Both the position numbers and the translations under genes were made by a program. Positions 6,579 to 63,511 of a stretch of DNA of 64,000 bases are shown in pieces. How positions within the stretch are numbered: the stretch's first letter is position 1; every line of letters begins with the position of its first letter. The notes beneath the pieces were generated by a model. It was not told the DNA's origin. It saw nothing but the letters and a program-made list of their open reading frames with translations, and searched no databases. The stretch spans positions 2,616,572 through 2,680,571 of the forward strand of contig CP030759.1 in NCBI GenBank assembly GCA_003290465.1, in the 5' to 3' direction. This DNA is from Candidatus Sumerlaea chitinivorans (lineage in GTDB: Bacteria > Sumerlaeota > Sumerlaeia > Sumerlaeales > Sumerlaeaceae).

Positions 6579-8276
<1,698 letters not shown>

Positions 8277-9970: not shown

Positions 9971-9993
9971 CCTATTCGCCTCTCCAGTCCACC

Positions 9994-11466
9994 TTAGCGT
10001 GAAATGCGAAACCTTGGATCTTCCGGAAACAACCTGTGGAGTTGCTCTTGGCACGGTTTGATCCACTCCGAATTCGGAAAATACCGCAAGAAGGTCGCGA
10101 AAGCCTCTGGACCCCGCCGCGAATCTTTCCCTTCGAGCGAGAACAGACTTACAATCTTTATGAAATAGGCATGTTGGACATGCCAAAAGCCTGTCTCGGG
10201 AGGCCACAGTTCGCGATCTGGCGAGGCACTAATGCATTGCTCAGCGTATCGAAGAGCTTCCTTCATGTTTCCAACGGTAAAAAACCCCCGCGCTGCAAAG
10301 TAAGCAGCGTTTGCTTGCTCCAAAGTGGTCTGCTCATCTCGGAACTCAGTGAGAAACCGTGCACCCTCCTCCGCGACTTTCGCCCATTCATTGTGCCACT
10401 GGTAAGTCTCCAAGTACATCAGCCGGGCCCGCGCCTTATCCACCGGCTTCGTGCAAATGGCCTCCGCATCCTTGCAGAACTGCCGCACCCGCTCCCATGC
10501 TTCGAGGGGGATCGCCTCCCTCGCTTTCCATTTGCGGATGTAAATCTCAAACAGCACTCCCGCCGCCTGCAACGCAGCTGTCTCTTGGTAGTAGCGCGGG
10601 AGCTTAGAATCCATGAGCTCCAGATACGCCGCATGCGATTCCTCCCGCCGGTCGCCTCGATGGAGGAGCGCCGCCAGCCGAAGTTTACTCTCCAAAACCA
10701 AGCGCGACTGCGGCGCGATCGGCTCAAACAAATCCACAATCTCACGGAACACCTCGTAGGCCTCCTCGTCCCGCCGCTCTTTGATTAACAGGTGCCCGTA
10801 CGAAGAATACGCTCGCCGGCCGGCTCCTGTATCCGGATACGTGTCCCAGATCCGCTTGAGCTCCTTGAGCGCATCCTCCACGCGGCCGATCTTCGCCTGC
10901 GACGTCGCGTCATCGTATGCCGCCGATGCCTTGAGCTCGCGCTCGAGCCGCTCCGCAAGCGACTGAGTTGTTTGCCCCGCCGCCTCACGCATCGCGATCT
11001 CCACACGAATCCCATACGACGAATCCGGATGCAGCGTCCGCATGCGCGTCGCCATCTCCAACGCCGTGGACGTATCGCCCTCCGCAAACGCAACCTTCAG
11101 CGCGCGGTACGTCGCCTCGCTCGCATCGTACGTTAGCGGATCCATCTCGATCGCCTGACGATAGCTTGCCAGAGCCTTCGCTCGATTGCCCAGCCGCTCC
11201 CAGCAGCGTCCCTTGCGGATCGCACTGTTTTGTGCCGTCGGGTTCAGCGCAATCACTTCCTCAAACTTCTGGATCGCCTCCGCGTAGCGCCCCTGCCGCT
11301 CCAGCTCAAGCGCCTCCTTGCGTTGTTTCTTTATAATTTCTTTCTGAGCAAGCACTGGCGCACATTCGGCACTAGACACACCCAGTAGGGCCAACATCAG
11401 CACTGCACACGCCGCAGTGCGGCAGACACCAGTGTGGTTTCGATCTTTGACTTGTACCAATCGCAT
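9994..11466 (-). CDS. Module 1 protein B (B1), exported TPR protein
   Basis: 490 residues with an N-terminal signal peptide (about 1-36, ACAVLMLALLGVSSAECA). The mature part contains tetratricopeptide repeats: ALELERQGRYAEAIQKFEEV, then ERLGNRAKALASYRQAIEMD and further helical hairpins (GRVEDALKELKRIWDTYPDT). TPR domains mediate protein-protein contacts, here probably in the periplasm or at the cell surface. From RKEALELE onward it is almost identical to B2. Start ATG follows AGGAGGAG. It sits 24 nt after C1 and 23 nt before A1, consistent with one operon. Confidence 0.85.
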   Translation of the reverse strand: MRLVQVKDRNHTGVCRTAACAVLMLALLGVSSAECAPVLAQKEIIKKQRKEALELERQGRYAEAIQKFEEVIALNPTAQNSAIRKGRCWERLGNRAKALASYRQAIEMDPLTYDASEATYRALKVAFAEGDTSTALEMATRMRTLHPDSSYGIRVEIAMREAAGQTTQSLAERLERELKASAAYDDATSQAKIGRVEDALKELKRIWDTYPDTGAGRRAYSSYGHLLIKERRDEEAYEVFREIVDLFEPIAPQSRLVLESKLRLAALLHRGDRREESHAAYLELMDSKLPRYYQETAALQAAGVLFEIYIRKWKAREAIPLEAWERVRQFCKDAEAICTKPVDKARARLMYLETYQWHNEWAKVAEEGARFLTEFRDEQTTLEQANAAYFAARGFFTVGNMKEALRYAEQCISASPDRELWPPETGFWHVQHAYFIKIVSLFSLEGKDSRRGPEAFATFLRYFPNSEWIKPCQEQLHRLFPEDPRFRISR

Positions 11467-11490: not shown

Positions 11491-12771
11491 TCATTTCTGT
11501 CCTGGTTCTCTAAGAAAACGATCTGTTATTCTGAGCGCTGTGTGAATCTCATTGCGCACAAACAGTAATGTTTTGACGTCGGGTGGGGGATAGCGACGTG
11601 CTTCTAAATTCGAATACGTGGGGGATACAGAATTCCCGAGGGCGTTGTAAAGCCACTCTAAAAGTACCTGATTCCACCGCGCCACTGAACCCAGCTCCGT
11701 TGGAAATGCGAGAATCACGGAGTATAGAAACCCTTGAATCTGAGGAGAGCTTGCGTCCCGGAGCAGCCGAGAGAGTAGTGGGGTGGGACCAACGACGTCA
11801 AGGGAGAACGGGTTTCCATACCAGTCCATAAGTTGCGCCAAGGTTCTGTCCCTATCGCTTGGATGTAAGTAGAAGTTCCTCCCAGCCGAGGAGACCAGAT
11901 CATGCTTCCAAAGATTCAAATAAGAGTCGTCACGATCATCAAGCACATCCATCAGATACTCGGTATCCGTTGGCAGGCCACATTCGGATAGGGCTAAGAG
12001 GCAATCTCGACGAAGTAAGGAGTATACCGCATTGATTCGCGATTTCGCGAAGAAAAAGCGTTGCGGAAGGCCTCTGTATACGCGGGCATCTTCAATCACC
12101 GCCAGAGGTTGGAATTCATCGAGAAGCAGTTCGGTCGGGCTTTGGTAAAGCTGCTGCAAGGTTTTCACTGCCGCAGTAGTGTACGAAATCTTCCGGCGAG
12201 TATACAGGCCCCGGTTGAGGTAAAAGTCCTTGTAACCTAAAAAGATACCTAAAGTATAGTCGCTCGCAGTGTTTGCACGCAGCCACACGGGCCTTCGGAG
12301 CCTCGAGAACTCGGTCCCAGCCACCCACTCTCGCCTTTCAGCGAGAGGCACCTTGTCTATCTCAAAAGCAGGGGGGTAACGCCTCGCGAGCCCCCGCCAC
12401 GTCGGAAACAAGTTGTAGTGGTAAGCCAAAAACGTGGCCATGCCTTCTCCGGGTGTCGGATCCGGCAGCTCCTTGCTCATTTTGAGGAGCTGATCTATCG
12501 CTTGTAAAACGGTGCTCGTGCTTTCCGTGTGACTCAAGCATGAATCTACGGTACGTGCCAATTGATGATTACCGTAACAAGCAATGGACAATAGTCGTTG
12601 CTTGGCCACCACTGTCGTCTCAGCGTTAACATTGCGCGCTTCGAGAAGAATCGTGATCTCCCTCTCTTGATCTTGAGCAAAACTTCCTGAGATAAATGAA
12701 GCCGCCAAAACGAGGTTTAGAAGGGTTCTTCGAACAACTCGAATGATTCGCGAAGTTGGGGGGGTGTGCAT
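11491..12771 (-). CDS. Module 1 protein C (C1), exported protein of unknown family
   Basis: 426 residues from ATG 12771, which has an AGGAGG at 7 nt and lies 55 nt inside the 3' end of D1, suggesting translational coupling. A signal peptide is visible (TLLNLVLAASFISGSFAQ). The sequence is diverged from C2 and C3, but a shared C-terminal pattern remains: LLEWLYNALGNS, then VRNEIHTALRITDRFL, which matches VEWLYNCLGSS / LIREQMGTGVSIMNYF in C2 and LKFLHNCAG / LIQDQMQAGLQITDYF in C3. I do not recognise the family. Confidence 0.75.
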   Translation of the reverse strand: MHTPPTSRIIRVVRRTLLNLVLAASFISGSFAQDQEREITILLEARNVNAETTVVAKQRLLSIACYGNHQLARTVDSCLSHTESTSTVLQAIDQLLKMSKELPDPTPGEGMATFLAYHYNLFPTWRGLARRYPPAFEIDKVPLAERREWVAGTEFSRLRRPVWLRANTASDYTLGIFLGYKDFYLNRGLYTRRKISYTTAAVKTLQQLYQSPTELLLDEFQPLAVIEDARVYRGLPQRFFFAKSRINAVYSLLRRDCLLALSECGLPTDTEYLMDVLDDRDDSYLNLWKHDLVSSAGRNFYLHPSDRDRTLAQLMDWYGNPFSLDVVGPTPLLSRLLRDASSPQIQGFLYSVILAFPTELGSVARWNQVLLEWLYNALGNSVSPTYSNLEARRYPPPDVKTLLFVRNEIHTALRITDRFLREPGQK

Positions 12772-14042
12772 TGCCAATCCTCCTTTCCAAAGGATGCGCA
12801 CTGTGGGTACGATTCGGGCGACTGAAATTCTGAATCAGGCTGCGATGTGTAAGTTAAGCCGACCAGGTAGAATTTACGCACATCTATCATCTCTCGAAAA
12901 GCATCGGTGTTGACTGGATCCCCCCAGTTCTTTACCAAAACATACGGATTCGGAAATTCGTCTTCCCTTCTATAATACGCTACAAATTTCTCAACATAGT
13001 AAACGCGAGAGACTTGGAATATACTTTGAGTCACGTACAACCCTTTTTTGCCTTTCGCCAATACCCCACTAAAATTTGCTTGTCCTACTATGAGTTCGTC
13101 GGTTGGAATTTGTAGATTCACGCTAATCCCAGCGCTTATTAATTCAGATACTTTTATCTCGGGAGCTAGGGCGACACCTTCGATTATGTTGCCATCTCGT
13201 ACGGTTCCCACCTGAAAATTAGCTGTTCCCGTAAAGCAATCCTCTTCGCACCCGCTTATGCACTTCGCTAATGCGGGGAAACGAGTTGCGACGTGCTGCA
13301 TTCGATAGTAAGTGAGCTCAAGGCCATCAATGCCGGAAATGTGAAGGAGCAACGGTCTGCTAGTAAGACCAGCGCGCTGCGCGGATCTCGTATCCGAAAG
13401 GCAGGCTGGCACTCGGTAACGGACTGGTTTTACTACAACTTTAATGGTTACGCCCGTCGTCTCGCGCGCGTTAGCCTCTACCGCCAGCCCGCCAAGCATT
13501 TCAAATCGCTGCGGATTATCAGCAACAAAATTGAGCGTGTAGGTTGTAGCTTGCGTAAGCGTCAACGGTTTTACCTGCGAATCACCTTCAGGGCGACCAT
13601 ACTCGATCCTGGTTGTAACTTCATCATCTATCACCTGGATCTTGCAGGTTTGGGTTGTCCAGTTTGTCCCATCAGGAAGCTGAATGCCATGGTAGTAGAT
13701 TCGTAAATCCTGGTCCGACGCTGAAAGGCGTAGACCAAGGAGCCTTGCCCATTTCTCCGGTGTCATATCCGGCTCCGGGTCGTGACAGCAGCCGTTGGTA
13801 GTTATCACATCGATAATTCCGCACAACGTTATTGACGAACCAGGATCCACCTTCCAACTTGGACTCGTGCAAGGATCCTCTGGCTCGGGGGCAGGCGTAG
13901 GCACAGGAGTCGGCTCAGGAGGAGGTAGAACGGGCGGCCCCGGCTCCCCCGCGGTCAGTGCACAGGTGAGCAGTTGAGTAGTCAACACCAGGAGAAACCG
14001 CGCAACTGTTGGTGTTCTCAGCGCCAGCCTAATTCGTCGCAA
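12717..14042 (-). CDS. Module 1 protein D (D1), secreted Pro/Thr-linker Cys-rich protein
   Basis: The frame opens at TTG 14042 with a full signal peptide (VARFLLVLTTQLLTCALTAG), then a Pro/Glu/Thr linker (about 35-55, PPPEPTPVPTPAPEPED), then a Cys-containing domain. The start of the mature domain is shared by all three D proteins: SITLCGIIDV...CCHDPEPDMTPEKWARLLGL. The rest is variable. An alternative, better-placed start is the leader ATG at 14089 (GGAG Shine-Dalgarno), which is out of frame here because of the CCTCT repeat count (4); 3 or 6 units would put it in frame. Family unknown; probably cell-surface or secreted. Confidence 0.75.
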   Translation of the reverse strand: MRRIRLALRTPTVARFLLVLTTQLLTCALTAGEPGPPVLPPPEPTPVPTPAPEPEDPCTSPSWKVDPGSSITLCGIIDVITTNGCCHDPEPDMTPEKWARLLGLRLSASDQDLRIYYHGIQLPDGTNWTTQTCKIQVIDDEVTTRIEYGRPEGDSQVKPLTLTQATTYTLNFVADNPQRFEMLGGLAVEANARETTGVTIKVVVKPVRYRVPACLSDTRSAQRAGLTSRPLLLHISGIDGLELTYYRMQHVATRFPALAKCISGCEEDCFTGTANFQVGTVRDGNIIEGVALAPEIKVSELISAGISVNLQIPTDELIVGQANFSGVLAKGKKGLYVTQSIFQVSRVYYVEKFVAYYRREDEFPNPYVLVKNWGDPVNTDAFREMIDVRKFYLVGLTYTSQPDSEFQSPESYPQCASFGKEDWQCTPPQLRESFELFEEPF

Positions 14043-14057
14043 CAGTGCACGAGGAGG

Positions 14058-14077
14058 AGAGGAGAGGAGAGGAGAGG
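14058..14077 (-). repeat. Pentanucleotide CCTCT repeat, 4 perfect units, module 1
   Basis: On the minus strand four CCTCT units plus an imperfect CCTCC follow ATGAATAAACGT (ATG at 14089). Read from that ATG the peptide is MNKRPLLSSPLLL and stops after 23 codons. Removing one unit would fuse MNKRPLLSSPP to the D1 signal peptide without a stop. Confidence 0.9.
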
Positions 14078-14294: not shown

Positions 14295-15692
14295 TCATCT
14301 CGTCCCCGTGGTTCCCTCATCGTCCCACGGCAGCCAGCCCTTTTTCTGCAGCCGGTAGGTGAGAACCTCGTGGTAGCCAAATACTTGACTCATTGCTGGT
14401 ACGAGTTTGGCATCTTTTTGCTTAGCCTTAAAGTGTGACGAAGCACAGTTCCACACGAGGTAGCTATACTCGGGCCAAAAAGGACCGGGGACCCGGAGAA
14501 TATCGTAGGGTTCATAGAACCCTATTTCTCTGAACAGCTGACCATACCCCCGATAGAAGGCATCAATACTTGCAAGCCGCAGCTCCTGACTGATCTTCAA
14601 ATCTCTTCCGGATTCCTTCTTCAAATCCGCAGCGAGCTCTGCTAAAACGCGTACCGTCGCACTCTGCTGGAACCACGCGTTATCTGATGTTGAAGATGCT
14701 GCGTCAGAGTTCGTCACCAAGTTATGATCGGAATCATGGGGAGGGATAATATCTGCTAAGAGTTCCAGAACCGCCGCGCGAATAGGAATCCGGCGCATCT
14801 CCACCGTCCGAGCAAAAGAAAAATCCTCCTTCGGTTCTACAAACGCGAGTGGTCTCCCCTCCTGATCTTGTATCCGCCAGAGCCGCAAGAGCGGATCAAG
14901 ATCCCCACTCTCCTGACAGTAAAGTACCAGAAGAGGTAGATAGGGTGGCGCCGGAGAATCCGGGTCATAAGGCACATACCGATACCCTGACCAATGATGG
15001 AAAAACACGTGCCAGCGCGCAGTGGTTGTTTCGGCATCAAGATACCCACGGATTTTGGCCAATAAGTCTGGTGCCAACTTGGTGGACTGAAGTTCCTGCG
15101 GGAGGAGTTGCCTGACCACCTCGGGAACCTCACAGCCGATGGGTTTGCCGAGGAGGACATCCTTGTAGACACCGATGATGCGTCGAGTGCGAAGCGCGAG
15201 GGCCTTCTGTTTGACCTCTTTCTGTTCCTCAGGCGTCCCACGCACATAGACAATTGCCCCAGCCACTGACTCCTCGGGGGTATACAGAAACTCCGCTTTT
15301 TTCACCACACCGCGCGCCCACTCCAGTGACCCCGTTGTGTCCGGACTCAGCGCCCGTTGCGCCAACGCCCGACGCTCCTCCTCTGCCGGTAACTTCCCCG
15401 AGGCAAGCACCCGGGCCCAGTAGCCCGGAGGCTCGTCTAGCCCTTCATACGCCCACAAGAGCACGTCTTCGAGAAGGGCTTGGGTCGGAGCCTTCTCGCC
15501 GCGGTTGATCGCTTCCCCATCCACCAACTGCGCGCGCAGCAACGCCCACAAGCCGGGGTTCGCTACGCGAACCATGCCAACTCCTTGACCCTGCCCAATC
15601 GCAACGAGAAGAAAAATTGTAAGAGCCCCGACGATGGCGGCCTTCCACCATTGGATATGCTGTCCCACTCTTTCTTTCGGGTTCCTCATCAT
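14295..15692 (-). CDS. Module 2 protein A (A2), exported protein of unknown family
   Basis: 465 residues from ATG 15692, 24 nt after the B2 stop. Export segment at about 17-33. Residues 1 to about 190 differ from A1 at only a few positions. The sequence then diverges fully (from KPIGCEVPE onward) and becomes conserved again at YHEVLTYRLQKKGWLPW near the end. The switch between near-identity and divergence within one gene suggests a mosaic made by recombination. Function unknown; see A1. Confidence 0.8.
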   Translation of the reverse strand: MMRNPKERVGQHIQWWKAAIVGALTIFLLVAIGQGQGVGMVRVANPGLWALLRAQLVDGEAINRGEKAPTQALLEDVLLWAYEGLDEPPGYWARVLASGKLPAEEERRALAQRALSPDTTGSLEWARGVVKKAEFLYTPEESVAGAIVYVRGTPEEQKEVKQKALALRTRRIIGVYKDVLLGKPIGCEVPEVVRQLLPQELQSTKLAPDLLAKIRGYLDAETTTARWHVFFHHWSGYRYVPYDPDSPAPPYLPLLVLYCQESGDLDPLLRLWRIQDQEGRPLAFVEPKEDFSFARTVEMRRIPIRAAVLELLADIIPPHDSDHNLVTNSDAASSTSDNAWFQQSATVRVLAELAADLKKESGRDLKISQELRLASIDAFYRGYGQLFREIGFYEPYDILRVPGPFWPEYSYLVWNCASSHFKAKQKDAKLVPAMSQVFGYHEVLTYRLQKKGWLPWDDEGTTGTR

Positions 15693-15715
15693 CCTATTCG
15701 CCTCTCCAGTCCACC

Positions 15716-17176
15716 TTAGCGTGAAATGCGAAACCTTGGATCTTGCGGAAACATGCGCTGAAGTTGCTCTTGGCACGGTTTGATCCACTCCGAATTTGGA
15801 AAATATCTCAGAAAGCTCTCGTAAGCCTCCTGACCTCGCACCGAGTCTTTCCCCTCGAGTGAGAACAGACTCACAATCTTCATGTGGTAGGCATGCTGGA
15901 CATGCCAAAAGCCCGTCTCGGGCCACAGCTCACGATCCGGCGAAGCGCTGAGGCATTGCTCCGCATACCGAAGAGCTTCCTTCATGTTTCCAATGGTAAA
16001 GAATCCCCGCGCCGCAAAGTAAGCAGCGGAGGCTTGCTCCCGCGTCGTCTGGTCATCTCGGAACTCAGTGAGAAACCGTGCACCCTCCTCCGCGACTTTT
16101 GCCCATTCATTGTGCCACTGGTAGGTCTCCAAGTACATGAGCCGCGCTCGAGCTTTGTCCACCGGCTTCGAGCAAATGGCCTCCGCATCCTTGCAGAATT
16201 GCCGCACCCGCTCCCATGCTTCGAGGGGGATCGCCTCCCTCGCCTTCCATTTGCGGATGTAAATCTCAAACAGCACTCCCGCCGCCTGCAAAGCCGCTGT
16301 CTCTTGGTAGTAGCGCGGGTACTTAGAATCCATCAGCTCCAGATACGCCGCATGCGATTCCTCCCGCCGGTCGCCTCGATGGAGGAGCGCCGCTAGCCGA
16401 AGTTTACTCTCCAAAACCAAGCGCGACTGCGGCGCGATCGGCTCAAACAAATCCACAATCTCCCGGAATACCTCGTACGCCTCCTCGTCCCGCCGCTCTT
16501 TGATTAACAGGTGCCCATACGAAGAGTACGCCCGTCGGCCGGCTGCTGTATCCGGATACGTGTCCCAGATCCGCTTGAGCTCCTTGAGCGCATCCTCCAC
16601 GCGGCCAACCTTCGCCTGCGACGTCGCGTCATCGTATGCCGCCGATGCCTTGAGCTCGCGCTCGAGCCGCTCCGCAAGCGGCTGAGTCGTTTGCCCCGCC
16701 GCCTCACGCATCGCCATCTCCACACGAATCCCATACGACGAATCCGGATGCAGCGTCCGCATGCGCGTCGCCATCTCCAACGCCGTGGACGTATCGCCCT
16801 CCGCAAGTGCAACCTTTAGCGCGCGGTACGTCGCCTCGCTCGCATCGTACGTTAGCGGATCCATCTCGATCGCCTGACGATAGCTTTCCAGGGCTTTCGC
16901 TCGATTGCCCAGCCGCTCCCAGCAGCGTCCCTTGCGGATCGCACTGTTCTGTGCCGTCGGGTTCAGCGCAATCACTTCCTCAAACTTCTGGATCGCTTCC
17001 GCGTAGCGCCCCTCCCGCTCCAGCTCAAGCGCCTCCTTGCGACGCTCCGTTGCCTTTTTTAAAGGAGATCCCTCACTGGCGGCGTCCAGTTGAGCGCCTG
17101 CACATGCAAGCAGCAACCCCAATACCGCATACGGAATGCCTTTAATACCTTTGTTGATAGCAGATTTGAGATGCAT
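15716..17176 (-). CDS. Module 2 protein B (B2), exported TPR protein
   Basis: 486 residues, start ATG 17176 after GAGGAGGAAG. The signal peptide (about 10-33, GIPYAVLGLLLACAGAQLDA) is unrelated to that of B1, but from RRKEALELERE the mature protein is almost identical to B1 through its C-terminus (QLQRMFPQDPRFRISR). Several TPR-like helical hairpins are visible. Expected to act outside the cytoplasm as a scaffold for the other module proteins; that role is an inference from operon position and TPR content. Confidence 0.85.
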   Translation of the reverse strand: MHLKSAINKGIKGIPYAVLGLLLACAGAQLDAASEGSPLKKATERRKEALELEREGRYAEAIQKFEEVIALNPTAQNSAIRKGRCWERLGNRAKALESYRQAIEMDPLTYDASEATYRALKVALAEGDTSTALEMATRMRTLHPDSSYGIRVEMAMREAAGQTTQPLAERLERELKASAAYDDATSQAKVGRVEDALKELKRIWDTYPDTAAGRRAYSSYGHLLIKERRDEEAYEVFREIVDLFEPIAPQSRLVLESKLRLAALLHRGDRREESHAAYLELMDSKYPRYYQETAALQAAGVLFEIYIRKWKAREAIPLEAWERVRQFCKDAEAICSKPVDKARARLMYLETYQWHNEWAKVAEEGARFLTEFRDDQTTREQASAAYFAARGFFTIGNMKEALRYAEQCLSASPDRELWPETGFWHVQHAYHMKIVSLFSLEGKDSVRGQEAYESFLRYFPNSEWIKPCQEQLQRMFPQDPRFRISR

Positions 17177-17224: not shown

Positions 17225-18514
17225 TTACCTGCCCATTTTAAGGTGGTCTGAAAAGTAATTCATTATAGATACGCCAGTTCCCATTTGTTCCCTTATAAGT
17301 GAGACATACTCAACATCTGCGGGTATCAACGAAGCGTCTTTGCCAGCCTTAGCTTCTATTGAACTTCCCAGACAATTGTACAACCATTCCACCATTTCCA
17401 CCTGCTCGAGCATTTTCCTTGACCATTCATCCGGCAGATTGCTGGACACTTCGAATAAGAACGCTTTTACACTCGGACATGACGACCAAAATAGGAGCAA
17501 AGTGATCTCCGGCGGCGCGAATAATGCTGGAAAGATCGCTACCCCACGCCTCTCTTTAGAGGATAACTGGGCAATTCGGCGTAAGTCTTCCCGTATTAAC
17601 TTTAGACTTTCATCTCCTTTGGGCGTTTTTCGTTCTGCACTTGATAGATAGAGACCTCCCAATATTTCAACAAGTTGCTCCACCTTTCTTGGGTACAACC
17701 ACCATGACGCATCCAAGAAGTGCGGTGATGCCCACGTCGCATCCAACTCCGGCTCGCCATACAGGTACTCATAATAATTAAAGTAAGGACCAAGCAACGC
17801 AAAATTTCGCGCAGCGGAGCCAAATGGTAGCTCTTTGCTAATCTTCGGGTCCCTTGCTTCGACTTCTGCCAACAAGATTGGATAAAGATCATCAAGCAGC
17901 CTAACGTTCGCTTCCAGAAAATTCGGAGCATACACTTGTCGCATGTACTTCCAGGCATCTCGCTTCGGAATGTCGGAACGCGAAGGTGCGGGCAGACGAT
18001 ATCCCAATATCCACAAGTTACTAACGATCTCGCGGTAAGGTGTCCACAGGTTTGCTCGGACCTCAGGGGGTAGCCAAAGGAGAGTGTTGGTGGTGATTTC
18101 CAACCACCTCGACTTGTCTATTTTCTCCTTTCGAACGCTCGGCTTGCCGTTCACTTGTTCCGAATATAGGCCGGAACCCAATCCAAGAGCTACCGCAAGA
18201 CTCTCTGAAATGGTCGTTTCTGGCGCAGTCCTTCCTAATGCAAATAGCTTATTGCACACGCTTGATACCGTGTCCCCCGTCGCTCGGATCGAAAAACAGG
18301 CATCCAGCTCTTTCGCAAGATCTTCGTTGCCACACGCGATGGCATATAGCATCTGCTCTCGAATTTCTGTCGTGTTTTGTTCCAAGCGAGAAACTGTTAA
18401 CCGAAACAGAAGCTCACTAATAGGAACTGGGTGGGCTACCGTTCTGCCAGGATTGGCGAAACAGGAAACCGTTATGAGAAATATACTTCCGAAAACAGTG
18501 AAGACGTTTCGCAT
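17225..18514 (-). CDS. Module 2 protein C (C2), exported protein of unknown family
   Basis: 429 residues from ATG 18514, with AGGAG 10 nt upstream; a TTG at 18523 is less likely. Signal peptide VFTVFGSIFLITVSCFANPG. Overall diverged from C1 and C3 but keeps the C-terminal hallmarks VEWLYNCLGSSIEA and LIREQMGTGVSIMNYFSDHL. Located 22 nt after D2 and 48 nt before B2. Codon use looks AT-richer than in B2 beside it, as is also true for the D genes. Confidence 0.75.
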   Translation of the reverse strand: MRNVFTVFGSIFLITVSCFANPGRTVAHPVPISELLFRLTVSRLEQNTTEIREQMLYAIACGNEDLAKELDACFSIRATGDTVSSVCNKLFALGRTAPETTISESLAVALGLGSGLYSEQVNGKPSVRKEKIDKSRWLEITTNTLLWLPPEVRANLWTPYREIVSNLWILGYRLPAPSRSDIPKRDAWKYMRQVYAPNFLEANVRLLDDLYPILLAEVEARDPKISKELPFGSAARNFALLGPYFNYYEYLYGEPELDATWASPHFLDASWWLYPRKVEQLVEILGGLYLSSAERKTPKGDESLKLIREDLRRIAQLSSKERRGVAIFPALFAPPEITLLLFWSSCPSVKAFLFEVSSNLPDEWSRKMLEQVEMVEWLYNCLGSSIEAKAGKDASLIPADVEYVSLIREQMGTGVSIMNYFSDHLKMGR

Positions 18515-18536
18515 AGGAAACAAGCTCCTGTAGGAA

Positions 18537-19808
18537 TTAATAATGCTCAGCGTTTATCCAAGACTGCATCACTGAGTCATAAACCGTAATTGGTTGCAAA
18601 GGAACTTCCGGTAGTGGAGTATTGCCTATAGGCATGTCTTGTACCACTTGCTGTTGGCTGGGAAGAAGATCTGGCCGTCCAGCACAAGTAAAACGAGGGA
18701 TAAATTCATCCGTTTTTTCACGTATCGGACTTGCGGCAATCAGCGTCCATTCTGTTGCAGTTGCCCCTGGACCTCCTTGGGGATTAAATAAGAATTGTTC
18801 GTCGGTCCAGAGATACTCCTCGCTGTTAAATCTGAAGTAAACGCGGCCCTGCGCTTCGTAAACAGCTCCGTCGTAGCCGCGCTCCTTCTGGAATCCTTGT
18901 AGCAAGCAAAACCTACACTCCGGCAAGGTGTAAGACACGGTGGATATGAAAGCTTCTATGTTTGTGTATTCGTCGTGCGGGAGGGTAAATGAAATGCTAC
19001 CACCAAGCTTGACAAGCTTCTTAATTGTTACCTCGCCACACACGGTGCCACCCGTAATACCCCCATCTGTGTGGGTGCCAATCTGTGCAGATATTTTAGA
19101 GAGCTGAATGGTGGTGTTTTGACGCTGGCACGAACTGCCACTTTGAGAGACAAGCGGGGTAAAAATCGTCTTAATGTGGCGAACTCGTGCATACTGGCTG
19201 TATACCAGAACGCGCTCTCCCAAGAACGTCCCCAACCTCTCAACTTTTGTCGTGAAAGCGTCTGAATCAGGCATATGAGCATCTTTCAGTTGCTCTATCT
19301 CGGTTCCTTCCACTATCTCCCGAACAGGAATATGAACGTCTACTATTGTCGTTTCATCAGCATTCGCCCAATACCACGCACCCGCGTGCCAGGGATCGGG
19401 TTCCTGGCGGGGTGGTGTGCTGGCGTATAACCTGAGGACATAATCACCCGGAATCGTTAACGTTATTAAGGGTGTACCGAAGCCCCACTCCCACTGGACT
19501 TCATCATCGAATAACCATTCACTACATACTATATCTGTCGTCTCCTTTCCGATTTCTACCGTCTTCCTGAGCCGTAACACGTCTTTGTCCTTAATCGTTG
19601 GGGACAAGCCGAAGTAGTCTGCCCAATCTTGCGGCGTCATGTTTTCCTTTGGATCACAGCACCGTACGGGTTGGGTTGTAATGTCATGCACGCCAGTCAC
19701 CGTGATGGGGGGGCCCGCCAACGCGATGGGGTAGCAGTCGCTACTGGGAGTTGGAGCGGGCGTGGGAGTCGGAGTAGGATTTGGTTCGACGGCATAAAGG
19801 GGGAGCAT
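18537..19808 (-). CDS. Module 2 protein D (D2), secreted protein, apparently out of frame with its start
   Basis: The first ATG in frame (19808) lies after the hydrophobic core of the signal peptide, which is encoded just upstream without any ATG, GTG or TTG (FRWPKRLLIAAAVIGSMLPL). The mature part begins with a Thr/Pro linker (EPNPTPTPTPAPTPSSDC), then the shared PPITVTGVHDI...CCDPKENMTPQDWADYFGL block and a variable region with paired cysteines. The natural start is probably ATG 19911 in the leader, which needs 4 or 7 CCTCT units instead of the present 6. Secreted or surface protein of unknown family. Confidence 0.75.
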   Translation of the reverse strand: MLPLYAVEPNPTPTPTPAPTPSSDCYPIALAGPPITVTGVHDITTQPVRCCDPKENMTPQDWADYFGLSPTIKDKDVLRLRKTVEIGKETTDIVCSEWLFDDEVQWEWGFGTPLITLTIPGDYVLRLYASTPPRQEPDPWHAGAWYWANADETTIVDVHIPVREIVEGTEIEQLKDAHMPDSDAFTTKVERLGTFLGERVLVYSQYARVRHIKTIFTPLVSQSGSSCQRQNTTIQLSKISAQIGTHTDGGITGGTVCGEVTIKKLVKLGGSISFTLPHDEYTNIEAFISTVSYTLPECRFCLLQGFQKERGYDGAVYEAQGRVYFRFNSEEYLWTDEQFLFNPQGGPGATATEWTLIAASPIREKTDEFIPRFTCAGRPDLLPSQQQVVQDMPIGNTPLPEVPLQPITVYDSVMQSWINAEHY

Positions 19809-19869
19809 GGACCCGATGACTGCAGCTGCGATCAGCAGACGTTTAGGCCAACGAAATACCGATGAAAGG

Positions 19870-19899
19870 AGAGGAGAGGAGAGGAGAGGAGAGGAGAGG
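19870..19899 (-). repeat. Pentanucleotide CCTCT repeat, 6 perfect units, module 2
   Basis: Six CCTCT units on the minus strand follow ATGAATAAACGC (ATG at 19911) and are followed by CCTTT. From this ATG the present frame gives MNKRPLLSSPLLSSPF and stops after 22 codons. With 4 or 7 units it would continue into the D2 signal peptide. Confidence 0.92.
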
Positions 19900-20115: not shown

Positions 20116-21453
20116 TTATCTCGTCCCTGTGGTTCCCTCGTCCTCCCACGGCAGCCAGCCCTTTTTCTGCAGCCAGTAAGTGAGTATCTGGGAGCAATCG
20201 TAGACCTCATTCATCACTTGGATAGCGGAATGCATCTGGCCCGGGTCAAACTTGGTGGAGTGGATATTCCAGACCAAGTAGGCGTACTCAGGCCAGAACG
20301 GACCGGGGGCCCGAAGTACTTTGTCCCATGCATACAAATGCGAATCGATACCCGCGCGGTAGTAGGCATCCACACTGGCAAGCCGCAGTTCTGGGCTTAT
20401 GCGAAGATCCCTTGCCTCATTCGCTTTAAGATCTTGTGACAGATCTGAAAGAAGGCTTTTCACTGCCTCGGATTGAGAGGGAAGGTCCGCAAGGATCTCC
20501 AGAACAGCAGCTCGCACGGGAAGCCGACGCGTTTCGATTTGGAAATAGAAATTGTCCGTGGAGACCTTAGTGTTAGGGGTTATGATGCTGTTCGACGGCC
20601 ACGGTCGCCCTTCCGCATCATGAATCTCCCACAGTCGCTGTAGGCGCTTTAGCCCCTGCGCCTCCTCGTCTACACAAAGAAGCACGAGCAATGGCAAATA
20701 GGGAGGCTTCACGGCGTCCGGTTCTGGGGTTATATAGCGATAACCCGACCAGTGGTCGAAGAAAACGTACCAACGTGCTCGAGTTGTCTCGGTGTCAATG
20801 TACGTACTAATCTTCCCAAGCAGTTCTGGCGAACTCTCTGCAGACGCGAAACGCTGCTGGACGAGTGGCTTGAGTTCGTCGGGCACCCGACAGCCGATGG
20901 GTTTGCCGAGGAGCACATCCTTGTAGACACCGATAATACGTCGCGTGCGTAGCGCGAGGGCCTTCTCTTTGACCTCTTTCTGCTCCTCCGGCGTCCCGCG
21001 CACATACACAATCGCCCCCGCCACCGCTTCCTCGGGGCTATACAGAAATCGCGCCTTTTTCACCACACCGCGCGCCCACTCCAGCGAACCTGTTGTGTCA
21101 GGGCTTAGTGCCCGCTGCGCCAATGCCCGACGCTCCTCCTGGGCCGGCAACTTCCCCGAGGCAAGCACTTGCACCCAGTAGCCCGGAGGCTCGTCTAGCC
21201 CTTCATACGCCCACAAGAGCACATCTTCGAGAAACGCTTGGGTCGGAGCCCTCTCGCCCCGGTTGATCGCTTCCCCGTCCACCAACTGCGCGCGCAGCAC
21301 AGCCCGCAGGGCGGGATTGAGGACCCGCTTACGCGATACCTCCTGTGCCTGCGTCAGGAGGCTCATCCATCCCACTGCGATGCCAAAGACGACAATAAGG
21401 AGGGAACGATTTGTCCACTGCCGAACCCTGCGTTCACTTCTTTGGTGAGCCAT
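20116..21453 (-). CDS. Module 3 protein A (A3), exported protein of unknown family
   Basis: 445 residues from ATG 21453. Signal peptide about 14-37 (RSLLIVVFGIAVGWMSLLTQ). The block ALRAVLRAQLVDGEAINRGE to GKPIGCRVPDELKPL is close to A1/A2 but with more substitutions. The middle is variable and the end is YWLQKKGWLPWEDEGTTGTR. Lies 54 nt after B3. Shorter than A1 and A2, with the length difference in the variable middle. Confidence 0.8.
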   Translation of the reverse strand: MAHQRSERRVRQWTNRSLLIVVFGIAVGWMSLLTQAQEVSRKRVLNPALRAVLRAQLVDGEAINRGERAPTQAFLEDVLLWAYEGLDEPPGYWVQVLASGKLPAQEERRALAQRALSPDTTGSLEWARGVVKKARFLYSPEEAVAGAIVYVRGTPEEQKEVKEKALALRTRRIIGVYKDVLLGKPIGCRVPDELKPLVQQRFASAESSPELLGKISTYIDTETTRARWYVFFDHWSGYRYITPEPDAVKPPYLPLLVLLCVDEEAQGLKRLQRLWEIHDAEGRPWPSNSIITPNTKVSTDNFYFQIETRRLPVRAAVLEILADLPSQSEAVKSLLSDLSQDLKANEARDLRISPELRLASVDAYYRAGIDSHLYAWDKVLRAPGPFWPEYAYLVWNIHSTKFDPGQMHSAIQVMNEVYDCSQILTYWLQKKGWLPWEDEGTTGTR

Positions 21454-21507: not shown

Positions 21508-22944
21508 CTAATCCTTTCTTATCCCCAATTCTCTCTCTGCGTAGGGGATAAATTCAGAACGCGGGAAATACGTTTTGAGGGTCTGGTAAAGGGCTTCCGC
21601 CCGCTGCCGAGAACCACCCGTCTTGATTAGACACGAGATCAGGTGGAAGTACGCGCGCTGGACGTGATAGAAGGGAACTTCAGGCCATAACTCTCGGTTC
21701 GGAGACCACTCGATGCAGCGCTCAAAATAGGGCATCGCTTCCGCGTACTTACCAATCCAGTAGAACCCCCGGCCGGTAAAGAATGTCGCCGTGGCTTGCT
21801 CCAGAGTCGTCTGCTCGTCACGGAAGTCCGTCAGGAAGCGCTGTCCCTCGATAGCAACCTTCTCCCATTGGTCATCCCATTGAAAACTTTCCAAGTACAT
21901 GAGTCGCGCTCGAGCTTTGTCCACCGGCTTCGAGCAAATGGCCTCGGCATCCTTACAGAACTGCCGCACCCGCTCCCACGCTTCGGCAGGGACTGGCTGG
22001 TTCGCATTTCGTTTATTAATGTAAATCTCAAACAACACCCCGGCCCCTTGCAGAGCTGCCGTCTCAAGGTAGTATCGGGGAACTTTCGAACTCATGAGCT
22101 CCAGATACGCCGCATGCGACTCCTCGTGGCGATTCCCCCGATGGAGGAGCGCCGCTAGCCGAAGTTTACTCTCCAAAACCAAGCGCGACTGCGGCGCGAT
22201 CGGCTCAAACAAATCCACAATCTCACGGAACACCTCGTAGGCCTCCTCGTCCCGCCGCTCTTTGATTAACAGGTGCCCGTACGATGAGTACGCCCGCCGT
22301 CCGGCTGCTGTATCCGGATACGTGTCCCAGATCCGCTTGAGCTCCTTGAGCGCATCCTCCACGCGGCCAACCTTCGCCTGCGACGTCGCGTCATCGTACG
22401 CCGCCGACGCCTTGAGCTCGCGTTCGAGGCGCTCCGCAAGCGGTTGAGTCGTTTGCCCCGCCGCCTCACGCATCGCGATCTCCACCCGAATCCCATACGA
22501 CGAATCCGGATGCAGCGTCCGCATGCGCGTCGCCATCTCCAACGCCGTGGACGTATCGCCCTCCGCAAACGCAACCTTTAGCGCCCGGTACGTCGCCTCG
22601 CTCGCATCGTACGTTAGCGGATCCATCTCGATCGCCTGACGATAGCTTTCCAGGGCTTTCGCTCGATTGCCCAGCCGCTCCCAGCAGCGTCCCTTGCGGA
22701 TCGCACTGTTCTGTGCCGTCGGGTTCAGCGCAATCACTTCCTCAAACTTCTGGATCGCTTCCGCGTAGCGCCCCTCCCGCTCCAGCTCAAGCGCCTCCTT
22801 GCGACGCTGCAAGGCATCCTCGTGTACTGAGGATCTCCCATACACTGGCGAAAAAAACACCAACGTGAGCCCCAATAGCAAGACCCCCCTAAGGACGTGT
22901 TCGCCCCTTGGCAAGTTTTCAGTGTTTCGATTTCGGACTTTCAT
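21508..22944 (-). CDS. Module 3 protein B (B3), exported TPR protein
   Basis: 478 residues from ATG 22944 (GGAGG at 7 nt). Signal peptide about 17-36 (VLRGVLLLGLTLVFFSPVYG), different from B1 and B2. From RRKEALELEREGRYAEAIQK to about residue 285 the protein is nearly identical to B1/B2. The C-terminal third is diverged in this copy (YAEAMPYFERCIEWSPNREL) but keeps the same plan. TPR scaffold, probably periplasmic or surface. Confidence 0.85.
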   Translation of the reverse strand: MKVRNRNTENLPRGEHVLRGVLLLGLTLVFFSPVYGRSSVHEDALQRRKEALELEREGRYAEAIQKFEEVIALNPTAQNSAIRKGRCWERLGNRAKALESYRQAIEMDPLTYDASEATYRALKVAFAEGDTSTALEMATRMRTLHPDSSYGIRVEIAMREAAGQTTQPLAERLERELKASAAYDDATSQAKVGRVEDALKELKRIWDTYPDTAAGRRAYSSYGHLLIKERRDEEAYEVFREIVDLFEPIAPQSRLVLESKLRLAALLHRGNRHEESHAAYLELMSSKVPRYYLETAALQGAGVLFEIYINKRNANQPVPAEAWERVRQFCKDAEAICSKPVDKARARLMYLESFQWDDQWEKVAIEGQRFLTDFRDEQTTLEQATATFFTGRGFYWIGKYAEAMPYFERCIEWSPNRELWPEVPFYHVQRAYFHLISCLIKTGGSRQRAEALYQTLKTYFPRSEFIPYAERELGIRKD

Positions 22945-23029: not shown

Positions 23030-24157
23030 TTAGTTGCTCTTCCGCTGCTTCCAAACCTCCTCAGCAAAATAATCCGTAATCTGAAGACCCGCTTGCATTT
23101 GGTCTTGTATGAGAAGTGCATTTCTTACATCCGCAGGTCTCCCCTCATCCACGCCCGACTGGCAATTTACAGTCAAAGCAACTCCAGCACAGTTGTGTAA
23201 GAATTTCAGCATTCCCGGATTATCCCACACATCAGGCGAGAGCTGGTCTGGCGAACACGTATGAAGTATTTTCCACACGAGAGCAGCCATTGAAGGCTGG
23301 GTTGCAGCTTGCATCAGAGCAAAATTATACAGAGCTGGATGTATACTGACGGTCGTAGTAATATCATGCACGAGCGAGGGATAAGCCCGCCCAATTTTCG
23401 ACAGATACGCCCGCTCAGCCATCGATATGAGCTCCTCTTCCTCAATCTGTGTGAAATCGTCATAGATATTACCGCGGGTAATTCTCAGGTATCGCACTCG
23501 CAGGAAAAACAAAAGCCATGGATCAGAGCCTTTAAGAGCTGGTAGGCCTGCCTCCGCATCGACAACGTATCGAAAATAATCGGTTTCTATATCATGTGCC
23601 TCGTAGAGTTTAAGCAATACAGCGGTATCCGGTACGGATGCCCTTTTGCGGAATCCATCCAATACGGTCCGGACTGTAAACCATTCTCTCACGTAAGGGG
23701 AATGGAGATTTGCCATAATTGCCTGAATCTCTTGGCTATTCTCTTGACTCGTTATCCACTTTCGATCCTTAGTTGGCTGTTCCGGAAATACGCTCGGTCG
23801 CCAAGTTAGATACAGTACTACCGCCGCCCCCTCCGCTGGCGTCAGTCCCGGCGATTTTCTGCCATAAAGGAGAAGGTTTTGTATCGTCTCGCGAACCTCA
23901 GGCAAAGGTGCATCGTTACTCAGCGACCTAACAATCTTCTTTGCCAATTCCGGATTGCCAGGAACTGTGCTTTCAGCAACCTGAATTATGTAATCCTGAA
24001 GGTTATATCTACCGAGCATTAATTCATAATAGAGCTTGTTGACGTGCAAAGACCAATTGGCTTGCTCTGCACTTACAACATTCCAGCCCCAGCCTAATGC
24101 TAAGAGGATGAGGGCGGTCCGCACGTGATATTTCCAAGTGAATTGTGTTAAACGCAT
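23030..24157 (-). CDS. Module 3 protein C (C3), exported protein of unknown family
   Basis: 375 residues, start ATG 24157 after GGAAGG. Signal peptide VRTALILLALGWGWNVVSAE. Shorter than C1 and C2 and barely alignable, except for the C-terminal pattern LKFLHNCAG and LIQDQMQAGLQITDYFAEEV. Lies 47 nt after D3 and 85 nt before B3. Family not recognised. Confidence 0.72.
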   Translation of the reverse strand: MRLTQFTWKYHVRTALILLALGWGWNVVSAEQANWSLHVNKLYYELMLGRYNLQDYIIQVAESTVPGNPELAKKIVRSLSNDAPLPEVRETIQNLLLYGRKSPGLTPAEGAAVVLYLTWRPSVFPEQPTKDRKWITSQENSQEIQAIMANLHSPYVREWFTVRTVLDGFRKRASVPDTAVLLKLYEAHDIETDYFRYVVDAEAGLPALKGSDPWLLFFLRVRYLRITRGNIYDDFTQIEEEELISMAERAYLSKIGRAYPSLVHDITTTVSIHPALYNFALMQAATQPSMAALVWKILHTCSPDQLSPDVWDNPGMLKFLHNCAGVALTVNCQSGVDEGRPADVRNALLIQDQMQAGLQITDYFAEEVWKQRKSN

Positions 24158-24204: not shown

Positions 24205-25413
24205 TCAGTTGGCCGAGTTTTGATTTGTGTCACAGATCGGCACAGGCAATTCTTTGATCCGTTGTAATTGAATTTGTCCTCCCGAGTAATTGTTTACGGG
24301 GCGAATGTCTTCGTCTTCGCCCCATTCGCAGGCGATATTGCGAATCTCGTCAACGGAAGTAAGCAGGAGTTCTGACCACACCCCCTGGTCCGATAGGAAA
24401 GTCTCGTAGGTTTCTACTCTGTCGGTAACCAAGAAATAGCGAATGGGTTTAAACAACTGCAGCAACCCGAATTTGTTCTCTTTAGCAGGCAAGGTCCACG
24501 TTCGACCAACAACGTTTATTGGCTCTGGTGGAGATGGCCTAGTAAAATGCACTGATACCTCAACGACGTCTAAGGCACCCACAGTCAGATCAACTCCTTC
24601 GAATTGAAGTCCACCACTGGTGTCGCGATTCACGAACTGCGTGCCTCGATAGGAAGTTAAAGTTGAAATAGAGACCGGGGATTCGCAATTCGCGTTTGCA
24701 CTGGCAAGGAACCCCAGCTTGGTCCCGAGATAGTGTTTAGTGTAGTTGTGATATTGGACCTCCAGTCCGAGAATTCCCAGGATGGGTTTAGTGGTGGTGG
24801 CGCGCCAGTGTTCATCAGGCGGTGCTTCTTCCAACAGTTCAATACAATTAGGGATTCGTTCTACTGGCGATTCAGAGACGTATACCCACACTAAAACGTT
24901 GGTTGTCTCCTTAGCATTTGCATCGAGGAGAATCGTTGTCCCGTCATCCCGAGTGTACACGGTTGTCCGTTGCGGGTTTTCGAGCTGAGAGGCAAGACAG
25001 TAAAAGCCCGGCTGTGTGAGAGTGACAGGGCAACCACCAAAACAGAATCCCCATTGGCTCGTTACCTCGTCCTCAATCTCCGTAACGCAGAATTCTGTAA
25101 CATTCTGATCCAGCGTGTAGTCCCAACACATCCACTCGTGTACCAAGTAATCCTCATCGCTCCCCCCGATATTCAGCCCGAAAAAGCTTGCCCACTGCTC
25201 AGCGGTGGTAAAACCTGGATCTTTGCAACGCTGCTCTACGGTCGGAACCTCCGCCGGTAAGCCGCTTACGGTTATTGGTGGACCGTCTGTTGGTTGCCAC
25301 GGCTGGCTGCACACATCGACTGAGAAGCAAGGATCAGGGGCTGGCGTTGGACTCGGTTGAGGTGTGGGCGTAGGATTATTCGGAGCCGTTGCTGCGGAGA
25401 GACAATTGCACAT
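24205..25413 (-). CDS. Module 3 protein D (D3), secreted Cys-rich protein, apparently out of frame with its start
   Basis: The only in-frame ATG (25413) falls inside the hydrophobic signal segment (IARAVRVLLFAIMCNCLSAA), so translation from it would lack the positively charged start. The open frame continues upstream to the leader without another standard start codon. Mature part: Pro/Thr linker (NNPTPTPQPSPTPAPDPC), then GPPITVSGLPAEV...CKDPGFTTAEQWASFFGLN shared with D1/D2, then a variable region with many cysteines. Proposed true start: leader ATG 25555, in frame with 3 or 6 CCTCT units; 5 are present. Confidence 0.73.
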   Translation of the reverse strand: MCNCLSAATAPNNPTPTPQPSPTPAPDPCFSVDVCSQPWQPTDGPPITVSGLPAEVPTVEQRCKDPGFTTAEQWASFFGLNIGGSDEDYLVHEWMCWDYTLDQNVTEFCVTEIEDEVTSQWGFCFGGCPVTLTQPGFYCLASQLENPQRTTVYTRDDGTTILLDANAKETTNVLVWVYVSESPVERIPNCIELLEEAPPDEHWRATTTKPILGILGLEVQYHNYTKHYLGTKLGFLASANANCESPVSISTLTSYRGTQFVNRDTSGGLQFEGVDLTVGALDVVEVSVHFTRPSPPEPINVVGRTWTLPAKENKFGLLQLFKPIRYFLVTDRVETYETFLSDQGVWSELLLTSVDEIRNIACEWGEDEDIRPVNNYSGGQIQLQRIKELPVPICDTNQNSAN

Positions 25414-25518
25414 TATCGCAAAGAGAAGAACTCTAACGGCTCTTGCGATTTTCCCCGCGCACAGGGTTTGGAGCAGGCGCCCCGTGCTGTCCTCCCTGAA
25501 ACTAACGGAAATATGAGG

Positions 25519-25543
25519 AGAGGAGAGGAGAGGAGAGGAGAGG
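25519..25543 (-). repeat. Pentanucleotide CCTCT repeat, 5 perfect units, module 3
   Basis: Five CCTCT units on the minus strand follow ATGAATAAACGC (ATG at 25555). The present frame reads MNKRPLLSSPLLSSYFR and stops. Gain of one unit or loss of two opens the frame into D3. Confidence 0.92.
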
Positions 25544-25636
25544 GCGTTTATTCATCGTTCTTTCTCCACCACATTTCAATCTTCTCGGTTGCGGCCTTTA
25601 GCTGTGGCTGAGGTTGAGTGTCAACAAAAAAATCAA
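25544..25636 (-). promoter_or_regulatory. Conserved module leader 3
   Basis: This copy shares only the part nearest to D: T-rich run, TTGACA, weak TAAAGG and GGTGGAG before ATG 25555. Identity to leaders 1 and 2 stops abruptly at about 25636, where no A gene lies upstream. The conserved remainder therefore defines the minimal leader, about 95 bp, and includes the candidate promoter. The stretch 25637-25745 up to the next gene shows nothing further. Confidence 0.6.
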
Positions 25637-25745: not shown

Positions 25746-26387
25746 TCACTCGACCTTCCGTACGAGCGAAAAGGCGATCTCGGGGGAGGCTTTGAGTGTG
25801 ACTACAATGCGGATGAGAAGCATCCCGAGCGCTTCGAGATAGCGCGCACTCGAGAGTGGGCCGCAGTCAACTGGGTCAAAGCCGGCGTCGGCCACAAGCA
25901 GCGCGACGACCTGCTTTGCCGCGCCATCGTCACCGCAGTAGAATCCGCTGACTTTCTGCCCCGCCACGCGGCACCCCTCGAGAGCCAGCACAGGCGAAGG
26001 AATCGTGTTCAGCGCTTTTACGACGCGTGCCTGCGGGACAAGTCTTGCAATCTCTTCGGACGCACTCGTGGTGAAACCAAACTCGAGATCGCTGAAGTCG
26101 GGTTTCACAGGATTGATGATATCAATAAGGATTTTCCCCTCAAGCGAGCCACATTCCTCAAGAGCTGATTTGCATTGCGCCCAGTGGGTGGCCAGAAGAA
26201 CGATGTCACACCATGCTGCCGTCTCGCGGATGGAGCCGGCTCGAGCCCCGTGCCCGACCTCCTCGGCAAGGGCGCGCATTTCTTCCAAACCCCGCACATC
26301 GCTAAACATCACCTCGTGACCTGCGTGCGCCCAAAGGCGCCCAAGTCCGCCCCCCATTCGACCAGAACCCACTATCCCAATACGCAT
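25746..26387 (-). CDS. NADPH-dependent F420 reductase-like protein
   Basis: 213 residues from ATG 26387 (GGAGG at 8 nt). The N-terminus is a Rossmann nucleotide-binding motif (MRIGIVGSGRMGGGLGRLWA) followed by GHEVMFSD. Other family marks are DIVLLATHW, ILIDIINPV, VVKALNTIPSPV and FYCGDDGAAKQVVALL. These fit the NpdG/Fno-like group (F420H2:NADP oxidoreductase), which also includes many proteins not using F420; ferric reductase-like Steap homologues are related. Cofactor F420 use is not shown by anything in the window. It stands alone between the modules and the TonB operon. Confidence 0.75.
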   Translation of the reverse strand: MRIGIVGSGRMGGGLGRLWAHAGHEVMFSDVRGLEEMRALAEEVGHGARAGSIRETAAWCDIVLLATHWAQCKSALEECGSLEGKILIDIINPVKPDFSDLEFGFTTSASEEIARLVPQARVVKALNTIPSPVLALEGCRVAGQKVSGFYCGDDGAAKQVVALLVADAGFDPVDCGPLSSARYLEALGMLLIRIVVTLKASPEIAFSLVRKVE

Positions 26388-26585
26388 CGTCGCTACCTCC
26401 AAATGTGATGCATCAGATTTAGTCCATCGAATAGCTTTACCATGCCGCCTTTCACAGGACTCTGGCTGCAGGCGTCATCTTCGGAAGGCAACGATAAAGT
26501 CCGCTGCAAGGCAATATGTTTGCGGCCTCCTGCGAGAATGATGTGCGCCCGGCGGCAATCGGCCGCCTCCATTTCTTGGCTAAGG

Positions 26586-49857: not shown

Positions 49858-50156
49858 GTTTCAATCCACGCGCCCGCGCGGGGCGCGACGAGGCAATGCC
49901 TTTGTCGTCGCGCGAGACGGGCGTGTTTCAATCCACGCGCCCGCGCGGGGCGCGACTACTTGCGTTTGCAGCCGACATCGGATCCACGTAGTTTCAATCC
50001 ACGCGCCCGCGCGGGGCGCGACGCGCCGGATGAGTCGGCTCTTGTCCGTATTCCTCAAAGTTTCAATCCACGCGCCCGCGCGGGGCGCGACTAGACACAA
50101 AAATACCATCATCTACGGCCCCAAGTTTCAATCCACGCGCCCGCGCGGGGCGCGAC
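49858..50156 (-). CRISPR. Type I-C CRISPR array, 5 repeats, 4 spacers
   Basis: Five identical 32-bp repeats at 49858, 49925, 49991, 50060 and 50125, with spacers of 35, 34, 37 and 33 bp. Read on the minus strand the repeat starts GTCGCGCCCC and ends GCGTGGATTGAAAC, the usual I-C type with its GTGGATTGAAAC handle. The stem is 7 bp (CGCGCCC/GGGCGCG). Transcription should be leftward, away from cas2. The array is short and repeats are perfect, which suits either recent activity or low acquisition. Confidence 0.98.
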
Positions 50157-50404
50157 CGGGTGCTTCTAACCCCAGTATTATCAGTTGCGATTTGCGCATT
50201 TTGCGCAGACCCCGTCAAGAGAAATCGTCCTATTCCCTGTTTTTGGTATGAGAACACCAGAGAATACTGATAAACCGTTACTTACACTTTGCGCAGACCC
50301 CATTTTTGGATCGCCACCCATAAATCACTGATTCCACAATTCTTATGGCACAAAATCCGCCCCAACCGCTTCCGCACACTTGGGGTCGGCGCAAAAGGCA
50401 GGGG
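50157..50404 (-). promoter_or_regulatory. Leader of the type I-C array
   Basis: 248 bp between the cas2 stop and the first repeat. It holds two direct copies of TTTGCGCAGACCCC (plus strand 50200-50213 and 50288-50301), with a third, weaker relative (GGGGTCGGCGCAAAA, inverted) near 50384. Such repeats inside leaders are candidates for integration-factor or Cas1-Cas2 docking sites. No gene seen. Confidence 0.65.
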
Positions 50405-51730: not shown

Positions 51731-51734
51731 GCGT

Positions 51735-52430: not shown

Positions 52431-52455
52431 GCTTTGCCCTCCGTTCGGGCCTACG

Positions 52456-53358: not shown

Positions 53359-53376
53359 GCTTAATATCCTCCCGAT

Positions 53377-55991: not shown

Positions 55992-56027
55992 CGACGCTTT
56001 CCTCCCTATGGAATTTGCGTAACCCCC

Positions 56028-58337: not shown

Positions 58338-58443
58338 CTGTGTCAGCACTCCCCATCTCTGGATTACCGTGGCACTGTGACAAAATAGGTCACGCAATTT
58401 GACCTGAGCAATTTTTTCAACTCTCAGGGCAGGGGTAAATGTC

Positions 58444-63131: not shown

Positions 63132-63157
63132 TCCAGCGTTGGAGTGAGTGGCGGACC

Positions 63158-63463: not shown

Positions 63464-63483
63464 AAGATTCACACCACAAACAC

Positions 63484-63510
63484 AAAAAAATGAGCGGCCT
63501 GCGGCCGCTC
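63484..63510 (-). terminator. Intrinsic terminator for leftward transcription of the II-C array
   Basis: GAGCGGCC-TGC-GGCCGCTC is a perfect 8-bp hairpin (63492-63510). On the minus strand it is followed by A and then TTTTTTT. On the plus strand there is no U-tract. It sits one base from the first array repeat, between cas2 and the array. Confidence 0.88.
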
Positions 63511-63511
63511 T

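Follow-up and report, generated by a model that had tools for sequence, protein, structure and literature searches.

Repeat tracts ahead of the signal-peptide core point to probable translational phase variation of a triplicated gene in 'Candidatus Sumerlaea chitinivorans'

The stretch analysed here (the window) is 64 kb of the 3.29-Mb genome of 'Candidatus Sumerlaea chitinivorans' BY40, which is a single contig of 3,289,105 bases. Three tandem modules, D1, D2 and D3, each of about 5.7 kb and each carrying genes A, B, C and D on the minus strand, are flanked by a pyrG-like gene (6579-8255) on one side and a reductase-like gene (25746-26402) on the other. In each module, a tract of CCTCT units sits after codon 4 of the leader frame, ahead of the hydrophobic core and inside the signal-peptide coding region of gene A, and the number of units determines whether the leader ATG is in frame with gene A (ON) or not (OFF). 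The features at the three leaders are as follows, in window positions.

25556-25636, minus strand: D3 constant leader upstream of the ATG, a block running from TTGATTTTTTTGTTGACA to GGAGAAAGAACG that is identical in D1, D2 and D3
25624-25619 and 25567-25564, minus strand: TTGACA and GGAG within the D3 constant leader, a block with a putative promoter role
25502-25555, minus strand: D3 leader frame as assembled (OFF product), from ATG 25555 through MNKRPLLSSPLLSSYFR to a stop
25519-25543, minus strand: D3 switch tract (CCTCT)5, which joins gene A at 3, 6 and 9 units
24205-25518, minus strand: D3 gene A in the ON frame, with a signal peptide, a Pro/Thr linker and a putative secreted protein without a family match; first in-frame ATG at 25413
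19870-19899, minus strand: D2 switch tract (CCTCT)6, leader ATG 19911, which joins gene A at 1, 4, 7 and 10 units
18537-19868, minus strand: D2 gene A in the ON frame, with ATG 19808 within the signal-peptide core
14058-14077, minus strand: D1 switch tract (CCTCT)4, leader ATG 14089, which joins gene A at 0, 3, 6 and 9 units
12717-14057, minus strand: D1 gene A in the ON frame, in which TTG 14042 is the one standard-type codon that could serve as an alternative start

In D3, the leader ATG (25555-25553) is followed by AAT AAA CGC, exactly five CCTCT units and then CCTCA, and the frame that begins there stops after 17 amino acids (aa). We replaced the unit counts in silico and translated the leader-ATG frame for each count. 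The results show that 0, 3, 6 or 9 units give D3 products of 441-456 aa that are continuous with the D3 open reading frame (ORF) of about 400 codons, while 1, 4 or 7 units give 40-50 aa and 2, 5 or 8 units give 12-22 aa. D1 has four units and requires a multiple of three (3k), D2 has six and requires 3k+1, and both are out of frame. Hence in each module one register in three opens gene A and the other two terminate early. A preliminary description of this DNA, made from the sequence, had placed D3 out of frame with ATG 25555 at five units, had proposed that three or six units would fuse the two, and had given D1 four units with a need for three or six; the translations agree with it on each of these points.

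The ON frames offer little to replace the leader ATG. As had been described, ATG 25413 of D3 falls inside a hydrophobic segment, VRVLLFAIMCNCLSAA, which is the signal-peptide core, and the 35 ON-frame codons between the tract and this ATG are free of stops; they hold ATA, ATC, ATT and two CTG codons and none of ATG, GTG and TTG. Likewise, the 33 open ON-frame codons upstream of ATG 19808 in D2 contain no ATG, GTG or TTG. A rival start within 25413-25500, which the preliminary description had named as the finding that would speak against it, was looked for, and no standard start was found there; CTG 25476, in the ON frame and 14 nt past GGAGG (25495-25491), is a weak candidate. In D1, TTG 14042 is in frame and upstream of the complete signal peptide; no Shine-Dalgarno-like sequence was found before it, and a pyrimidine tract precedes it. 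When the three frames of each tract were compared, a hydrophobic signal core was present in the ON frame only (maximum 12-residue hydropathy of 1.9-2.6 versus at most 0.7 elsewhere). The earlier statements on frames were right because the ON frames of D2 and D3 lack standard starts and the core sits in the ON frame.

The tracts themselves are far longer than expected by chance, and their unit is not a multiple of three, which are properties of contingency loci. In the window, nine (CCTCT)3 matches were found versus none expected from window shuffles, and in the whole 3,289,105-bp genome CCTCT runs of three or more units are confined to the three leaders. A scan for the sigma-70 consensus promoter gave no match at the leaders, with a window total not above that of shuffles, and the Rfam and tRNA scans gave no match. 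As assembled, all three gene A copies are OFF, which is a statement about the consensus. This state is unremarkable if any given tract is in frame one time in three, since three OFF of three then has a chance of (2/3)^3 = 0.30. The preliminary description had left two options, namely all three modules OFF or only D1 expressed through TTG 14042; the first holds for the consensus, and the second is possible but doubtful.

A length variant of the D3 tract was found by a search of genome contigs with gene D. The contig (DYIG01000114.1, 5,546 bp; L021) is filed under a metagenome-assembled genome (MAG) of Thermaerobacter marianensis from the African mine metagenome sample TT109 (TauTona, South Africa). 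Its first bases lie within the D3 tract, where six complete CCTCT units precede the CCTCATATTT that D3 also has; from the tract to a 10-N gap about 1.6 kb further on, it differs from D3 by a single substitution. Since the contig begins inside the tract, its unit count is a lower bound: at least six units versus five in the D3 of the window, and six is an ON length for D3. Thus, tract length differs between close relatives, as seen in one low-coverage contig. A 19.9-kb BY40 stretch from elsewhere in the window had no close match in that Thermaerobacter MAG, and therefore L021, a Sumerlaea-like contig, was probably mis-binned. Near-identical deep-subsurface lineages from Siberia and South Africa are documented for 'Ca. 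Desulforudis audaxviator' (PMC8443664, PMC12596165).

Repeats at the same site were found in two other genera. A single-sequence search of 40 relatives with gene A gave no match, and a profile search of the same 40 matched two, G001 (itself in the profile) and G003; homologues of gene A or gene B were not found in the remaining 38. G001, from the same family and a different genus, carries the orthologous A-B-C-D operon in a single copy. Its leader reads ATG-AAT-ACC-AAA-CTA-GTT-(CT)9, and the assembled frame ends after 15 codons (OFF); 4, 7, 10 or 13 CT units would open it into 368-374 residues, so that as assembled it is off by one unit. The G001 genome has just two (CT)8+ sites, the second one at a contig end, and therefore the chance of such a position at the leader is about 1e-4. 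G003, from a third genus, has homologues of A, B and C, and a C10 run lies twelve bases past the A of the leader ATG; its genome has only four sites of C10 or longer, and the other three are at or near contig ends.

Among the relatives, further long tracts of CT or poly-C were not taken as support, being mostly non-coding, low-complexity or at contig ends. Contigs L035, L038, L039, L045, L047 and L048 end exactly in poly-C/poly-G runs of 10-21; these runs might reflect artefacts of sequencing, or tracts whose instability interrupts assembly. BY40 itself has a single (CT)8+ tract, a (TC)14 at L032 4313-4340 (G000:C1:474312-474339), which precedes a dethiobiotin-synthetase-like gene by about 165 nt and is possibly a promoter-type repeat switch.

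The remaining genes of the modules are listed below.

23030-24157, minus strand: D3 gene B, signal-like N-terminal segment, family unassigned
21508-22944, minus strand: D3 gene C, TPR protein with a signal-like N-terminus, 5' half near-identical across modules
20116-21453, minus strand: D3 gene D, signal-like N-terminal segment, family unassigned
17225-18523, minus strand: D2 gene B
15716-17176, minus strand: D2 gene C (TPR)
14295-15926, minus strand: D2 gene D as the listed ORF, true start probably the ATG near 15692
11491-12801, minus strand: D1 gene B, true start probably the ATG near 12771
9994-11466, minus strand: D1 gene C (TPR)
8522-10207, minus strand: D1 gene D as the listed ORF, true start probably the ATG near 9970

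All four genes start with signal-like N-termini, gene A in the ON frame only. Gene C encodes a TPR protein, and genes A, B and D had no match in Pfam. The three A proteins had no match in Pfam or NCBIfam at E 0.1, and the sole NCBIfam match among the scanned proteins, to a gene B product, was insignificant (E 0.065). In PDB profile searches gene D gave no match, and gene A gave a weak match (E=0.004) over 55 positions with a profile of five sequences; a gene A match to a CAP repeat over 17 positions was judged to be low-complexity and set aside. AlphaFold2 models of gene A and gene D (predicted local distance difference test scores, pLDDT, of 28 and 37) were unusable. Searches of plasmids (tblastn) and viral contigs (leader DNA) gave no match.

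Alignment of D1, D2 and D3 shows a mosaic. The leader does not vary among modules ahead of the tract, and genes A and B are near the random level in DNA with about 25-31% protein identity. An identity of 83-98% extends over roughly 600 nt of C and roughly 400 nt of D, and the ends of both genes are variable. At about 30% identity, the A proteins share conserved Cys, Gly and Asp positions and their frames remain open across 400 codons, and therefore selection in the ON frame is needed. L021 resembles D3 throughout A and B and for most of the constant stretch of C, with a short D1-like patch, and is D1-like thereafter. This joint between D3 A-B and D1 C-D fits recombination in the constant island, and L021 is a possible recombinant; it is not proof of recombination, because bridges of D2 sequence (about 146 nt to D3 and about 72 nt to D1) could have let the assembler join D3 to D1.

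Taken together, the tracts, the reading frames, the lack of standard starts in D2 and D3, the length difference in L021 (at least six units versus five) and the repeats in two other genera make phase variation, as read in the preliminary description, the best supported explanation. We consider it likely that gene A undergoes slipped-strand translational phase variation in a triplicated mosaic four-gene operon. In such a mechanism, DNA-polymerase slippage would add or remove 5-base units in the CCTCT tract, which in the first gene separates the start codon from the signal-peptide core. In one register of three, translation from the leader ATG would pass along (PLLSS)n and continue into the signal peptide and the secreted protein A (ON); in the other two, it would stop after some 12-55 codons (OFF). 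Switching would be independent among the modules, giving up to eight combinations, and OFF leaders may exert a polar effect on genes B-D. We infer slippage as the cause, reversible switching, and the secretion and surface exposure of A from the sequence; the purpose might be variation of the exposed proteins to counter phages, predators or changes in surfaces. Several observations weigh against this explanation. All four assembled tracts (D1, D2, D3 and G001) are OFF, which is expected with a chance of 0.20 if lengths are random, and no ON tract has been seen end to end. The sole length variant is one contig with a k-mer coverage of 2.19 that begins inside the tract. In addition, gene A of G003 (L031 4814-4917) is not opened by any C count as assembled, as if other stops or a further frame shift lay between the tract and the signal peptide; G003 therefore supports the position of the tract and not the switch.

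The uniform OFF state could also mean that A is made at the assembled lengths. Programmed ribosomal frameshifting or RNA polymerase slippage on the tract, which is pyrimidine-rich and repetitive, would then leave no gene OFF, and the out-of-frame state of every assembled copy agrees with this. This is highly improbable: the shift needed is -1 in D1 but +1 in D2, D3 and G001, an inconsistency in direction that led us to reject programmed frameshifting, and the repeat unit varies by genus while the length varies between near-identical sequences. Non-standard internal starts could likewise give constitutive expression with the tract as a by-product, and both TTG 14042, upstream of a full signal peptide, and the GGAGG ahead of the ON-frame CTG 25476 fit this idea. 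However, D2 has no standard start and no Shine-Dalgarno-like sequence ahead of its CTGs, the D1 TTG comes after a pyrimidine run, and the idea does not explain why three genera carry a tract at this position, so that we regard internal starts as very unlikely.

A permanently silent or decaying state of the gene A copies, which would serve as a recombination reservoir and not be switchable, agrees with the finding that every assembled copy is OFF and with the D3-D1 joint of L021 in the constant island, where recombination would place it. It is unlikely, since the divergent A frames are still open with conserved residues and every gene A comes with a separate leader, ribosome site and tract. Assembly or sequencing error, with real lengths in frame or mixed lengths under an arbitrary consensus, has a small chance of being the explanation: the genome is metagenome-derived, the identical module leaders allow reads to be misassigned and L021 breaks in the tract, but tracts of 20-30 nt fit within ordinary reads and the unit counts are clearly distinct per module. 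A mixed population, moreover, would itself favour switching. Beyond phase variation of gene A, a wider scheme is possible and is put forward tentatively, in which phase- and recombination-driven variation would combine: a shared leader and C/D islands would frame exchangeable A, B, C-end and D-end blocks with a slippage-switched A, and the switch would be kept across genera with its unit replaced (CCTCT, CT, C), changing amid almost no other intercontinental divergence.

The proposed mechanism is opa-like, but the host is unexpected and the protein families are without a known match. Neisseria opa genes switch frame through CTCTT repeats located in the leader-peptide coding sequence (PMC3745409). 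As in the modules, a pentanucleotide pyrimidine repeat lies just past the start codon, within the part that encodes the signal peptide, a single register of the three is ON and there are multiple copies per genome (PMC3745409). The A genes are not opa genes, because no homology was found, and the A proteins, with no Pfam or NCBIfam match, are unrelated in family. Further differences are that opa comprises about 11 scattered single genes whereas here there are three tandem four-gene operons, that the Sumerlaea host is free-living in the deep subsurface, and that the repeat unit here becomes CT or C in related genera. Simple sequence repeat (SSR) contingency loci of Haemophilus, Neisseria and Helicobacter (PMC11868660) also control translation of an exposed or secreted product by an out-of-frame repeat; the present case differs in that it is multi-copy and comes from an uncultivated environmental phylum. 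Nearly all described cases of multi-copy SSR phase variation come from host-associated bacteria. A 2025 review regards the apparent restriction of multi-locus phase-variable genomes to pathogens as an open question that may reflect database bias (PMC11868660). In an open-access literature search, the term 'phase variation' was not found among the matched Sumerlaeota papers. A case from a deep-aquifer lineage that faces no animal immune system points to phages, predators or fluctuating surfaces as the source of selection, and any metagenome containing Sumerlaea chitinivorans would allow the tract lengths at the three leaders to be counted.

Elsewhere in the window, two clustered regularly interspaced short palindromic repeat (CRISPR) systems adjoin each other. 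A complete-looking type I-C CRISPR-Cas locus with Cas3, Cas5c, Cas8c, Cas7, Cas4 and Cas1 lies at 50699-58397 on the minus strand, with a short array of GTTTCAATCCACGCGCCCGCGCGGGGCGCGAC repeats at 49858-50160. A type II locus at 59045-64000 on the plus strand encodes a 1045-aa Cas9, Cas1 and a Cas2-like ORF, and its array of ATCGTAACCAAACTTTCCCCGAGGTCAATCCACAAC repeats extends past the end of the window.
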